In this document: in pieces, positions 16,132 through 20,250 of the stretch
Numbering within the stretch: position 1 is the first letter of the stretch
Layout of the letters: each line of letters starts with the position of its first letter
From: an uncultured Bacteroidales bacterium
Lineage (GTDB): Bacteria > Bacteroidota > Bacteroidia > Bacteroidales > F082
Assembly: GCA_947303335.1 (NCBI GenBank)
Contig: CAMYYB010000021.1
Coordinates: 1 to 32,011, forward strand
Direction: 5' to 3'
DNA: 32,011 nucleotides
Position numbers and translations under genes: made by a program
The notes under the pieces: model-generated
Told to the model about the DNA's origin: nothing
What the model saw: the letters and a program-made list of their open reading frames with translations, nothing else
Databases searched by the model: none

Positions 16132-17964
16132 TTACTTCACGACAATGTTCTTCGTCGCCACGCCGTTAGCAGTAACCACTTGTACCGTGTAAAGCCCAGG
16201 AGCATAGTCACCAACTTGCAGCACGTACTGGTTCCCTTCCGCAACTTTTGTCTCGATCAGTTGACCCATCATATTATAGACGGCGATTCTTTGCAAATCA
16301 TTCGCCACAATATAGAGCAGGCTTTCAGCGGGATTGGGAAAAACCGAAACATGGGAGGCCAAATCACTTAATTGATAAGGAATGCCCTCACCAACCAAGG
16401 TCTCTGACGGAGCCTCGCAACCGTCGCTATACACGGACATGATGAAATACTCTGCCTGGGCACCGATTGAAATTGTGTCAGTATAAAGATGATGGATGAT
16501 AGTGGGGTCATACTGCACTGTGGCAATTACCGCATTGTCACGATACACATCAAAATGCTCAAGTTCGCCTGTAGAACCATCTTCGGGCGCATCCCAAATC
16601 AGATAAAGCTCCATCACATCCTTGTCAACAGGAAAAGCAAACTCAAAATTACTCACAGGATTGCAATACACTTGCGGCGTACTGCCCACAGGGTTGGCGA
16701 TCTCTGCAAGGCAGGCAATGTTCATCTGACAGTACTGTTGCGACATCTCGAAGCTATTGACGCTATTGCCAATCAAGTCGTTGGGTGTGTGGATGTAAGG
16801 GCTGTAGTTCTGGTAATCCTCGAAGGGATAGATGCCCATGTAGCCATGGTTGTTGAACGAGGTGTGGTCGCTGTCGCCCTGGTTGAAGTTGACGTGACGG
16901 ATAGGCAGCTCGGGATAATACACCTCGCCGACATTCATATAATAGGTGCCGATGGGCTCCACCGAATTGGGATAGATGCAGTCGATATGGATTTGGTCGC
17001 CGTAGAGGTAGCCGTTCATGTCGTTGTTGAAGTAGCCGATGATGTCCATGCCTTCCTGCTGGCAACGTGAGGCGTAGGCTTCGCTACCGTAAAGGCCCAT
17101 CTCCTCGCAACCGTAGGCGCAATAGATGATGCTGTATTCAAACTCGTACTGCGTCATGATTCTCGCACTTTCCAACACACTGGCCACACCTGTGGCGTTA
17201 TCGTCAGCACCGGGAGCTGTGCCGCCACCATACATCGCATCGTAGGAGAACGAATCAAAGTGGCTGCCACAGATCACGTAGGTATCAGGATAGAGCGTGC
17301 CACGCTGAATACCGATAACATTGGGGGCCGCCTGTCCGCTTCCCATCCATGTATTAGCATTAAACGGTTGCTGTTCAACTTCAAGACCCAGAGCAGCCAT
17401 CCTGCCGGCAATCCAGTCGGAAGCAGCAAAGGCATTGTCGGAGTTCCAGATACGGTTTTGGTAGTCCTGCAAGTGTTGGACGGTGGCCCTCAAGGAATCC
17501 AGGTTCACTTGGTCAAGCATTTCGCGGATGATGGGATTCACCTCAGTCACCACAGGGAAGTCGCGGCTCATGCGTGGCAGTTGTGCCTCCTTGTTGAAAA
17601 TGGCTACGGCACCGTCGTTCTTGTAAGGCATTGCGCTGCCTTTGACAAGCACATAGTCATTCGTTTGCAGCAGGGTCTCACCATCACCGATATAAGTCTC
17701 TTGTTCCGATGCTGGACAATATACTAAGGTGTAGACCTCAGCATCGGCAAAAGCATCGGTGTCGACAAGAGTCATCGTGTTGGCATCATAACGTTCCGCA
17801 GAGGCAAACACCTCGGAATTGTTGTAGTAATGCACCGTCAGATTGGAATCGTTGAAGATTTTTTCCAATTCGGAACGGTTTGAGTAAGAGATTCTCACAA
17901 AGTCTTTGGCCATCATCGTTGCTGACAGCAGCAAAGCGAGTAATAACGTACAAAATCTTTTCAT
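16132..17964 (-). CDS. Secreted M28-family zinc aminopeptidase with T9SS C-terminal domain
   Basis: The protein has 610 aa with a signal peptide (MKRFCTLLLALLLSATMMA). The zinc peptidase core is complete: GSHFDS with His235, PGADDNATG with Asp254, YGCEEMGLYGSEAYA with the Glu287/Glu288 pair, NNDM with Asp315, and YIHTPND with His392. These are the M28 ligands and general base. A fibronectin-like region follows. The end (SVFPNPAESLLYIV to GLYTVQVV, NIVVK) is a type A C-terminal sorting domain, so the enzyme should cross the outer membrane by the type IX system and be surface-attached or released. It is convergent with rlmD across the shared terminator. It probably releases N-terminal amino acids from dietary or host peptides. 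Confidence 0.93.
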   Translation of the reverse strand: MKRFCTLLLALLLSATMMAKDFVRISYSNRSELEKIFNDSNLTVHYYNNSEVFASAERYDANTMTLVDTDAFADAEVYTLVYCPASEQETYIGDGETLLQTNDYVLVKGSAMPYKNDGAVAIFNKEAQLPRMSRDFPVVTEVNPIIREMLDQVNLDSLRATVQHLQDYQNRIWNSDNAFAASDWIAGRMAALGLEVEQQPFNANTWMGSGQAAPNVIGIQRGTLYPDTYVICGSHFDSFSYDAMYGGGTAPGADDNATGVASVLESARIMTQYEFEYSIIYCAYGCEEMGLYGSEAYASRCQQEGMDIIGYFNNDMNGYLYGDQIHIDCIYPNSVEPIGTYYMNVGEVYYPELPIRHVNFNQGDSDHTSFNNHGYMGIYPFEDYQNYSPYIHTPNDLIGNSVNSFEMSQQYCQMNIACLAEIANPVGSTPQVYCNPVSNFEFAFPVDKDVMELYLIWDAPEDGSTGELEHFDVYRDNAVIATVQYDPTIIHHLYTDTISIGAQAEYFIMSVYSDGCEAPSETLVGEGIPYQLSDLASHVSVFPNPAESLLYIVANDLQRIAVYNMMGQLIETKVAEGNQYVLQVGDYAPGLYTVQVVTANGVATKNIVVK

Positions 17965-18052: not shown

Positions 18053-18571
18053 TCACATCGACTTATCCGCTTCATAGATCAGTTGCAACAGGTGCTCTAT
18101 ATCAAGGTTTTCCGACTTCACCGTGATTCTCGCCTGCTCATAGAAAGGCATACGCGAGGCATAGTGCCAAGTGACATACTCCATCAACTCGGCTTCCGAC
18201 TTGCCCCGCGTCAAGGGACGCTTGTGATGCGAATGCAACACTCGGTCGACGGCGGCAGCGGGGCTGATGCGCATGAAGACCGTCAGCCCGTGCAAGTTCA
18301 TCCAGTCCATATTGTCGAAATAGCAGGCAGTACCGCCCCCAGTGGATATCACCGTGTCTTCCAGATTCTCAGTGCTTTTCAGGATTTCCGACTCCAGTTT
18401 CCTGTACAGCGGCTCGTCGTATTTCTGGAAGAAATCGTCTACAGAAATGCGGTATTTCTCCTCAAAGAGGTCATCAGTGTCCACCACTTTCCAATTCAAA
18501 CGACTCGCGAGACGCTTGGCGGCACTGGTTTTGCCCGCTCCCATATAACCGACGAGGTAAATCCTATTCAT
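18053..18571 (-). CDS. aroK: Shikimate kinase
   Basis: The protein has 172 aa, the normal family length. It phosphorylates shikimate at the 3-hydroxyl using ATP. The Walker A loop GYMGAGKTS covers residues 8-16, the VVDTDDLFEE segment holds the Mg2+ and shikimate Asp, STGGGT is the second substrate loop, and KRPLTRG is the lid with its catalytic Arg. It overlaps the upstream radical SAM gene by 8 bases and is thus the third gene of the lipoprotein-radical SAM-aroK operon. That pairing with an unrelated modification enzyme is probably a matter of convenience rather than function. Confidence 0.95.
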   Translation of the reverse strand: MNRIYLVGYMGAGKTSAAKRLASRLNWKVVDTDDLFEEKYRISVDDFFQKYDEPLYRKLESEILKSTENLEDTVISTGGGTACYFDNMDWMNLHGLTVFMRISPAAAVDRVLHSHHKRPLTRGKSEAELMEYVTWHYASRMPFYEQARITVKSENLDIEHLLQLIYEADKSM

Positions 18572-19637
18572 TAATCATGTGATATTGGCATAATTGCAGT
18601 TTCCCGTCGCCATCACGAAGGTGCATCCCGTTGCCCTGACAGTAGCGCCACATCTTGCAGTCGGCGCATGGGCCGGTCTTCATCCATTTCCTGTCACGAT
18701 AGACTTGGAACTTGTTCTGCCAAACCTCCCAGAAGCTGTCCTTATAGATATTGCCCTGATGGTAGTCGCTGCGGATACTCAGGCAACCCGAGATGGAGCC
18801 ATCGGCCAACACCGAGGCAATATTGATGCCCGCGCTGCAAGAATAATAATGGTTGCGCACCTCGCCCTCGTATTTACCCAAGAACCCGTCGCAGCCATAG
18901 TCGGCACGAATCTTGCCTTCCAAGCGGGTTTGCTTGATGAACTCCATCATCTCGACAAACTGGCTGTTGGAAAGTTTGAAGTCCGGCTCATTGGCAGCGC
19001 GTCCAAAGGGGAACACAGTGAACAGGCGCCAACGCTTGATGCCCAAGGAAATCAGGAAGTCGCGGAACTTGGGCAGATATTGGATAGTACGCTGGTTGAC
19101 GCAGGTAATCACATCCCAGGTGAGTCCCGGATGCTGCTTCATGCCTTCCACAGCACGCAGCACGTTCTTGTAGCTCATGGGGTTGCCGCGCATCCAGTTG
19201 TGGTCTTCCTCAAAGCCGTCAAAACTGACGGCAATAGACCTCAATCCAGCAGCAACAAACTCATTCAGCTTTTCAGGCGAGAGCAGCATTCCATTACACA
19301 CCATACCCCAAACGAAGCCTCGCTTGGTAATCTCAGCACCGCAATGGGCCAAGTCGTTGCGCATCGTGGGTTCACCTCCTGTGGTAATCACCATCACCTT
19401 GGCGGGGTCTTGATGGGCGCGTACCTCATCGAGGACTTTCAAAAAGTCTTCAAGAGGCATGTCGTCTTTCTCGGAAAGCATACGGCAATCGGAGCCGCAA
19501 TGCCTACAATTCAGGTTGCAGCGCAGGGTGCATTCCCAAAACAGTTGGTGCAACTCATGCTCATCGATGCGCTGTTGCAGCACCTGATGGTTAAGTTCGA
19601 GCATCACCCTTTTATGCAATCCGAGACGTTCCCTCAT
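18564..19637 (-). CDS. Radical SAM/SPASM enzyme, TIGR04133-like (rSAM/lipoprotein system)
   Basis: The protein has 357 aa. The radical SAM cluster motif CNLNCRHC (Cys40, Cys44, Cys47) lies in the phrase LFWECTLRCNLNCRHCGSDC. It is followed by TTGGEPTMRNDL, SFDGFEEDHNWMRGNP and RWRLFTVFPFGRAA. The C-terminal SPASM region has CSAGINIASVLADGSISGC, GPCADCKMWRYCQGNGMH and LCQY, with enough Cys for auxiliary [4Fe-4S] clusters. These phrases match my memory of TIGR04133, the Bacteroidota rSAM enzyme linked to a lipoprotein partner. Consistent with this, a lipoprotein with three YGSP motifs is encoded 21 bases upstream. The reaction is unknown; modification of the partner is inferred from SPASM family behaviour. 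Confidence 0.9.
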   Translation of the reverse strand: MRERLGLHKRVMLELNHQVLQQRIDEHELHQLFWECTLRCNLNCRHCGSDCRMLSEKDDMPLEDFLKVLDEVRAHQDPAKVMVITTGGEPTMRNDLAHCGAEITKRGFVWGMVCNGMLLSPEKLNEFVAAGLRSIAVSFDGFEEDHNWMRGNPMSYKNVLRAVEGMKQHPGLTWDVITCVNQRTIQYLPKFRDFLISLGIKRWRLFTVFPFGRAANEPDFKLSNSQFVEMMEFIKQTRLEGKIRADYGCDGFLGKYEGEVRNHYYSCSAGINIASVLADGSISGCLSIRSDYHQGNIYKDSFWEVWQNKFQVYRDRKWMKTGPCADCKMWRYCQGNGMHLRDGDGKLQLCQYHMINE

Positions 19638-19658
19638 GGCTAATTCATCTCATAACCA

Positions 19659-20219
19659 TTATTTACGCATAGGATCTGGTGAGCCATACAACACATCGGC
19701 AGCGCGTCCCTCCGACTTCCTATTAGGCAAAGCTTTAATTTCCTCCTCCGTTATGGTATCAATGTTTGGTTTGTCCAAAGCCTTGATTTGCTGCTGCAAG
19801 TCTTCGGCTTCCTTCCTCAGTCGACCCGTCTCCCTGCCCCACTCTTCTATCACTTCGGGCGAGCCGTAGACACAAGCACCCTCGCGGCGGCGCAACTCGG
19901 ATCGCACCTGATTCAGACGTCCCTGCAACTCTATACGGCGAGCGCTTTTCTCCAAATCGACATTCTCGCCCAACTTGTAGTTGATGGAGTCAAGCCGGCT
20001 CCTGAGGCGTAAGGTTTCCATTCCGTACTCCGCAATGATTTCTGGCGAGCCGTACACGGCAGCACCTTCGCGACGGGTAAGCATTTCCTGAATGGAATCG
20101 CGTTCCTTGATGAGTTGTTTGCGTTCCTGCCTCGACAAGCCTTTTGTCGTACAGCAAGCAGTCATGAAAGCCAGTCCTGACAGGGCACCAATCCATACTG
20201 TTCTAACAATTTTTTTCAT
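19659..20219 (-). CDS. Coiled-coil lipoprotein with three YGSP motifs, probable radical SAM substrate
   Basis: The protein has 186 aa. A lipoprotein leader ends MTAC (Cys22). The mature part is charged and helical. Two long repeats share RREGA-VYGSPE-I-E--G-ET-RLR, with YGSP at residues 56-59 and 118-121. A third YGSP (178-181) ends the protein, in DVLYGSPDPMRK. Bacteroidota radical SAM-associated lipoproteins recalled from annotation carry one YG-P motif just after the lipid Cys. Here the motif is repeated and placed in turns between coiled-coil helices, so this looks like a variant partner. It has its own promoter element 23 bases upstream and heads the operon. That YGSP is the modification site is an inference. 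Confidence 0.82.
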   Translation of the reverse strand: MKKIVRTVWIGALSGLAFMTACCTTKGLSRQERKQLIKERDSIQEMLTRREGAAVYGSPEIIAEYGMETLRLRSRLDSINYKLGENVDLEKSARRIELQGRLNQVRSELRRREGACVYGSPEVIEEWGRETGRLRKEAEDLQQQIKALDKPNIDTITEEEIKALPNRKSEGRAADVLYGSPDPMRK

Positions 20220-20242: not shown

Positions 20243-20250
20243 CAAAGATA
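20243..20250 (-). promoter_or_regulatory. Bacteroidota -7 promoter element for the YGSP lipoprotein operon
   Basis: This is an exact TATCTTTG on the minus strand, 23 bases before the ATG at 20219. It falls in the 42-base gap after the outer-membrane protein gene, so the operon is separately expressed. Confidence 0.6.

Follow-up and report, generated by a model that had tools for sequence, protein, structure and literature searches.

Gene Organization of the Locus

The window, i.e., the whole stretch of DNA that was analyzed, is contig CAMYYB010000021.1 with a length of 32,011 nt, which belongs to a genome assembly of 2.66 Mb in 116 contigs with a completeness of 71%. It harbors a lipoprotein gene and, downstream of it after a gap of 21 bases, a gene for a radical SAM/SPASM enzyme. 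Both are located on the minus strand, and the ORFs thereby confirm the arrangement that had been described in an earlier, sequence-only reading of this DNA. The following features were assigned:

20243..20250, minus strand: TATCTTTG, 23 bases ahead of the lipoprotein start, resembling a Bacteroidota -7 box
19659..20219, minus strand: lipoprotein gene, 186 aa, with three YGSP sites (ORF reading); proposed substrate
20154..20156, minus strand: codon of the lipobox Cys22 (lipobox by rule); C22 invariant in 30/30 aligned relatives, partly by selection
20043..20054, minus strand: YGSP site 1, residues 56-59, preceded by V55 (X); Y56, G57, and P59 invariant in 30/30, partly by selection
19857..19868, minus strand: YGSP site 2, residues 118-121, preceded by V117 (X); Y118, G119, and P121 invariant in 30/30, partly by selection
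19677..19688, minus strand: YGSP site 3 in the C-terminal tail, residues 178-181, preceded by L177 (X) (ORF reading)
18564..19637, minus strand: TIGR04133 radical SAM/SPASM enzyme gene, 357 aa (561 bits, cut-off 425)
19497..19520, minus strand: CX3CX2C motif (C40/C44/C47), residues 40-47, followed by GS; invariant in 51/51
18654..18839, minus strand: SPASM domain, residues 267-328 (PF13186, E 3.2e-8)
18053..18571, minus strand: shikimate kinase gene, 8 bases of which overlap the enzyme gene

By its likeness to the Bacteroidota consensus, TATCTTTG is a candidate promoter -7 box. The pattern TAnnTTTG occurs 23 times on both strands of the window compared to 13 expected occurrences, and none of 100 shuffles contained as many; such an excess is what is to be expected for Bacteroidota promoters. 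The shikimate kinase gene, which follows the enzyme gene within at most 300 bases in 17 of 68 related loci (class A, see below), is probably a neighbor outside the function of the pair. At 88 bases past this gene, an M28-type peptidase with a type IX secretion tail is encoded on the minus strand (16132-17964), which is possibly co-transcribed with the enzyme-lipoprotein pair.

The Enzyme Is a Member of TIGR04133

The enzyme matched the Pfam profiles Radical_SAM (E 1.6e-21) and SPASM (E 3.2e-8), both above the gathering scores, and the residues C40, C44, H46, C47, G48, and S49 were invariant across all 51 aligned enzymes, so that the CX3CX2C motif and the SPASM domain noticed previously were borne out. 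Its assignment to TIGR04133, which had also been suggested from the sequence, holds as well, since the score of 561 bits lies above the curated cut-off of 425. The next NCBIfam profiles were TIGR04053 (123 bits), TIGR04103 (119), and heme b synthase (118). In the membership test for TIGR04103 the enzyme reached 118.8 bits against a cut-off of 725, and for TIGR03913, the GDL system, 108.6 bits against 591.75. A search against solved structures returned distant radical SAM enzymes only, with PqqE as the best one (E 4e-13). TIGR04133 and the lipoprotein family TIGR04134 are known families that are already annotated as a pair, and our literature search on TIGR04133, TIGR04134, and radical SAM-associated lipoproteins yielded no assigned chemistry.

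The Lipoprotein Carries Three YGSP Sites

Translation of the upstream gene yielded the features that had been claimed for its product, namely a lipobox cysteine at position 22, which the lipobox rule predicts behind ...FMTA, and three YGSP, which begin at residues 56, 118, and 178. The first two sites lie within a duplicated module, whose copies share 22 of 51 aligned residues and score 108 against a maximum of 47 in 300 shuffles, whereas the third one is located outside the module in the C-terminal tail. This tail is missing from many relatives, and in two loci (L052 and L058) it reads LYGTKRP or LYGTRRP with no proline at the fourth position. The 247 other ORFs from the genus loci contain 38 YGxP in their 101,078 residues, which corresponds to about 0.06 expected occurrences in the 164 mature residues of the lipoprotein and to a nominal P of 4e-5 for three, a value that disregards that one duplication accounts for two of the sites. 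The 30 aligned relatives were picked as coiled-coil YGxP lipoproteins, and the invariance of YGxP and C22 among them is thus partly due to selection. For the same reason, i.e., because the rows had been chosen for having YGxP, we do not use the invariant YGxP columns of alignments A1, A3, A4, and A5 as an argument (A4 and A5 omit one of 82 and four of 34 rows, respectively).

Neither NCBIfam nor Pfam, TIGR04134 included, contained a family that matched the lipoprotein above the cut-off. TIGR04134 gave no match in the source genome at E values up to 10, and none of 81 coiled-coil relatives reached its cut-off of 39.8 bits. Judged by these profile searches, the putative coiled-coil, multi-site partner is new to NCBIfam and Pfam. 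In this respect it differs from the annotated pair, with which the locus has in common that the enzyme is a TIGR04133 member, that the lipoprotein gene lies directly upstream, and that a lipobox is present by rule; the lipoprotein of the window gives no TIGR04134 match and presents three sites in presumably helical modules and a tail.

The repeat structure allows for the explanation that YGSP is purely structural, forming a turn and a helix cap between the repeat helices, and was multiplied by duplication. SPE is similar to a helix N-cap, and the duplicated module contains two of the three sites, as this explanation would have it; the third site in the tail speaks against it, and so does the distribution of the motif among unrelated partners described below.

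Enzyme and Lipoprotein Co-occur Within the Genus

TIGR04133 was found in 76 of 99 genomes of the genus, the source genome included, with 107 matches, of which 16 class-B matches were not fetched. By score the matches fall into class A (at least 545 bits, 68 genomes), to which the enzyme of the window belongs, and class B (467-487 bits), which is present in 38 genomes, class A being found in 31 of these too, with one further match at 502 bits in genome G027. A profile of the coiled-coil lipoprotein matched 71 of the 99 genomes, namely 68 of 68 with class A and 3 of 31 without it; the profile was derived from the same loci and the genomes are related, and Fisher's P of 1e-21 is to be read in this light. 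The three class-A-free genomes (G075, G089, and G111) contain only a single-site paralogue, and in one of the 68 genomes (G004) the match does not adjoin the enzyme. Among named genomes, the enzyme was encoded on the same strand in 47 of 47 loci that were found via the lipoprotein, a set that overlaps the organisms of the genus set and is not an independent sample. Thus, the co-occurrence that had been proposed for the two genes was found when a profile was built for it. The titles of the named genomes refer to uncultured Bacteroidales or Bacteroidia, several from the gut of deer, goat, sheep, yak, buffalo, or horse.

In the 1.5 kb ahead of the class-A enzyme gene, one, two, three, four, or no YGxP lipoprotein genes were present in 47, 17, 2, 1, and 1 of the 68 loci, respectively, and the number of sites per lipoprotein (n = 90) was one in 34, two in 38, and three in 18 cases. 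Over all genus loci that were fetched, a lipobox YGxP protein was detected at most 1.5 kb from the enzyme in 90 of 91 rows, but one of the 90 (L101) is really a kinase ORF. Several loci deserve separate mention. In L069 (G029:C12) a single enzyme gene is preceded by a tandem array of five lipoprotein genes, each of which encodes one to three YGxP. The second TIGR04133 gene of the source genome (478 bits; L002, G000:C40, with genes at 933-1325, 1341-1487, and 1498-2556) has two upstream lipoproteins, whose YGVP and YGPP are located at the lipid cysteine or close to it. In L050 (frame 1190-1463) and L060 (frame 1183-1471) small lipobox-free ORFs are located directly ahead of the enzyme, which contain YGCPV behind a charged N-terminal part and look like RiPP precursors.

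The YGxP Motif Is Shared by Unrelated Partners Across the Order

In a sample of the phylum TIGR04133 was present in 3 of 394 genomes, and in a sample of the order in 97 of 393, the source genome being counted in. From these, 109 loci were fetched (L123-L231) and 107 were kept, L230 and L231 being dropped because of the missing signature; the set leaves out the order matches in G571, G719, and G861:C29, and L188 and L198, with two enzyme matches each, count as one row each. A lipobox YGxP protein on the same strand within 1.5 kb, either up- or downstream, was found in 88 of the 107 rows. The 19 misses comprise three loci (L129, L155, and L169) with an upstream YGxP ORF that was overlooked by the lipobox or start rule, five (L179, L195, L202, L211, and L218) with an upstream lipoprotein that has YG and no Pro, one (L171) with a downstream YGAP ORF without predicted lipobox, and two (L156 and L228) in which the sequence stops less than 240 bases upstream; in eight of the 107 rows (L124, L159, L160, L164, L180, L185, L192, and L219) no YG partner was detected.

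For a comparison that does not depend on the motif, the nearest upstream ATG-lipobox ORF of each enzyme was picked blind to YG, which gave 177 proteins, some of them looking spurious as ORFs (e.g., in L060, L142, and L219), in 18 BLAST clusters, and three-residue gapped patterns were counted with one mature protein per cluster. YGxP was the commonest pattern and occurred in 10 of 18 clusters, compared to a mean of 0.18 and a maximum of 3 in 100 shuffles, in which no pattern at all exceeded 6 clusters. A single site was present in 92 of 108 order-wide partners, and two- or three-site partners occur elsewhere, too (e.g., L184 and L186). TIGR04134 (E up to 0.001) covered 75 of 107 order-wide YGxP partners and none of 30 class-B partners, and 33 of the 107 carry a carboxypeptidase-regulatory-like domain. 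The residue in front of the tyrosine varied with the subtype. Of 164 class-A sites, 156 had V, L, or I there, and of 126 order-wide sites, 111 had C, E, K, M, or V. The lipid cysteine itself occupies this position in class B at 26 of 34 sites and order-wide at 34 of 126.

The motif is therefore not an oddity of one subtype, an option which we rejected because YGxP is common to unrelated partners. Regarding the previous suggestion of an undescribed subtype, its place outside TIGR04134 stands, whereas the motif runs through the whole TIGR04133 system. Likewise, YGSP had been suggested to be the recognition or modification site; YGxP is indeed the commonest element shared by unrelated partners, as such a site would be, but the core that survives in the exceptions is Tyr-Gly. 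As the motif stays while the scaffold changes, X-Tyr-Gly is likely to be the target of the enzyme, judging from these comparisons. That YGxP is also found right behind the lipid cysteine or ahead of carboxypeptidase-regulatory-like domains in unrelated partners makes a purely structural role of YGSP very improbable.

The partner does not even need to be a lipoprotein, as follows from locus L101 (G027:C19), where one operon encodes the TIGR04133 enzyme between a protein kinase and a small soluble protein, each with two YGPP sites, and no lipoprotein. A TIGR04133 pair from outside the Bacteroidota was observed on the Treponema saccharophilum plasmid pTS1 (L233, 3580-5056), with CYGMP at the likely lipid cysteine; in the tree (see below) its enzyme clusters with two Bacteroidales enzymes.

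A Single-Site Paralogue Occurs Apart From the Enzyme

The single-site paralogue mentioned above was inspected in 12 genomes (L253-L264) and contains one YGSP or YGPP in 12 of 12. It sits on a different contig from TIGR04133 or, in G008, 23 kb off, and is followed by the shikimate kinase motif in 7 of 12 cases, as in the window. A class-A enzyme is present elsewhere in 9 of the 12 genomes. YGSP lipoproteins without any radical SAM gene, named beforehand as an observation that would speak against the pairing, thus occur on a small scale only. The paralogue may be modified in trans or may be a sign of enzyme loss.

Its existence away from the enzyme would also fit with an alternative in which the enzyme leaves the lipoprotein alone and both belong to one shared pathway, e.g., with a small molecule made by the enzyme that is bound or sensed by the lipoprotein, and the modification is so far a prediction. 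In a binding protein one would expect the fold to be conserved and not a tag of four residues, however, and the unrelated scaffolds have only the short motif in common, up to three times per protein and in several tandem genes. In G027 the motif even occurs in a kinase and a soluble protein adjoining the enzyme. We therefore consider a shared pathway without modification rather improbable.

Comparison With Spliceases

PlpX is a member of TIGR04103. It is reported that PlpX cuts tyramine out at X-Tyr-Gly and that PlpXY acts at XYG in a leader-free manner on a ten-residue tag (PMC10533398). The same study found that of 16 splice tags in FtsZ two were accepted, both with GYGLP, and that others with YGLP failed (PMC10533398), which implies that the motif alone is insufficient for PlpXY and that the context matters. 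In a review, the modification is described as widespread and as serving protease inhibition, and the PlpX family is given as IPR026482 (PMC11002830). A plasmid from Nostoc encodes a 'nif11-class peptide radical SAM maturase 3' (TIGR04103) next to a Nif11 precursor ending with GGRGSIALYGLPPELF; this end, ALYGLPPELF, has X-Tyr-Gly-x-Pro, the same as the Bacteroidales partners. TIGR04133 and the Nostoc enzyme align over 329 columns with E 1e-33. Both systems thus combine a SPASM radical SAM enzyme with an adjacent X-Tyr-Gly-x-Pro protein, and the enzymes are homologous, but the enzyme of the window scores far below the TIGR04103 cut-off, and none of the genes next to the pair resembles PlpY (querying the genome with the PlpY-like protein from Nostoc, a search of low informativeness, gave no hit). 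Unlike the Nif11-type precursors, the putative substrate is a lipoprotein with predicted export and without Nif11 leader. The GDL system also uses a related enzyme, with partners that are short peptides annotated as DUF1843 and that read X-Tyr-Gly, X-Tyr-Ala, or X-Tyr-Met; six such proteins next to GDL-type enzymes show LYGG, PYGV, MYMA, LYAA, MYAA, and PYGA at one place.

Ten enzyme references were taken from plasmid hits, five of them splicease-like and the others comprising three TIGR04053-type enzymes, one MftC, and one PqqE. Against 42 TIGR04133 enzymes the median scores of the splicease-like references were 97-138 bits and those of the other five 58-93 bits, and HCGS after the cluster cysteine was present in 5 of 5 splicease-like references and in none of the other five. 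In none of the 42 cases did the Nostoc TIGR04103 enzyme come out as the best reference. For 33 of 42 the best of the ten was an uncharacterized radical SAM protein from an Agathobacter rectalis plasmid (L235, 3998-5152); a motif scan beside its gene revealed no YGxP. In the tree TIGR04133 formed one group (99/100) and the splicease-like enzymes another (100/99), with long branches and an unsettled sister relation. We rejected enzyme similarity as sole proof of splicing, since the family scores single out no chemistry and the tree leaves the sisterhood open.

Another chemistry at the same YGxP site has to be weighed, such as a cyclophane-like tyrosine crosslink or an oxidation or epimerization of the tyrosine. 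SPASM enzymes carry out many peptide reactions, the family scores point to no single one of them, and the closest reference, from Agathobacter, is uncharacterized. The kept core is Tyr-Gly, however, with a free X (V, L, I, C, E, K, or M) and a fourth residue that is likewise free in five exceptions, which fits splicing better than a crosslink with a fixed partner, and such other chemistries therefore appear unlikely, if less so than a shared pathway. Cys-based thioethers were rejected, as there is no cysteine near sites such as AAVYGSP.

Proposed Function and Implications

We propose that the two genes encode a substrate and its enzyme and, because of the motif match and the kinship of the enzymes, that the enzyme excises tyramine at X-Tyr-Gly, a reading to which we would give about an even chance. 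The enzyme would act on up to three places of the lipoprotein, V55-Y56, V117-Y118, and L177-Y178, and the protein would then be exported and lipidated at Cys22. The product, located in the envelope, would bear up to three electrophilic alpha-ketoamides, of which two would sit on the presumably helical modules and one in the tail. Its purpose is the least sure part of the proposal; such a lipoprotein might trap proteases, be they from competitors, the host, or the cell itself, through reversible covalent bonds, or it might offer a covalent attachment point. More tentatively, and with more doubt than confidence, TIGR04133 enzymes in general might be spliceases that make alpha-keto-beta-amino acids in lipoproteins throughout the Bacteroidales, in this herbivore-gut genus several times per protein, whereby Cys-Tyr-Gly partners would acquire an edited lipid-anchor residue with a beta-amino-acid backbone.

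A 2022 study of widespread spliceases may already list Bacteroidota spliceases and cover part of these findings. The common X-Tyr-Gly site turns an annotated pair into a testable prediction. If it is true, Bacteroidales make backbone-edited, electrophilic lipoproteins with an identical site on several unrelated scaffolds, and splicing would be extended from RiPP precursors to envelope proteins. This would provide additional enzymes for protein labelling and would point to gut bacteria having a class of lipoproteins that react with proteases or form covalent links.
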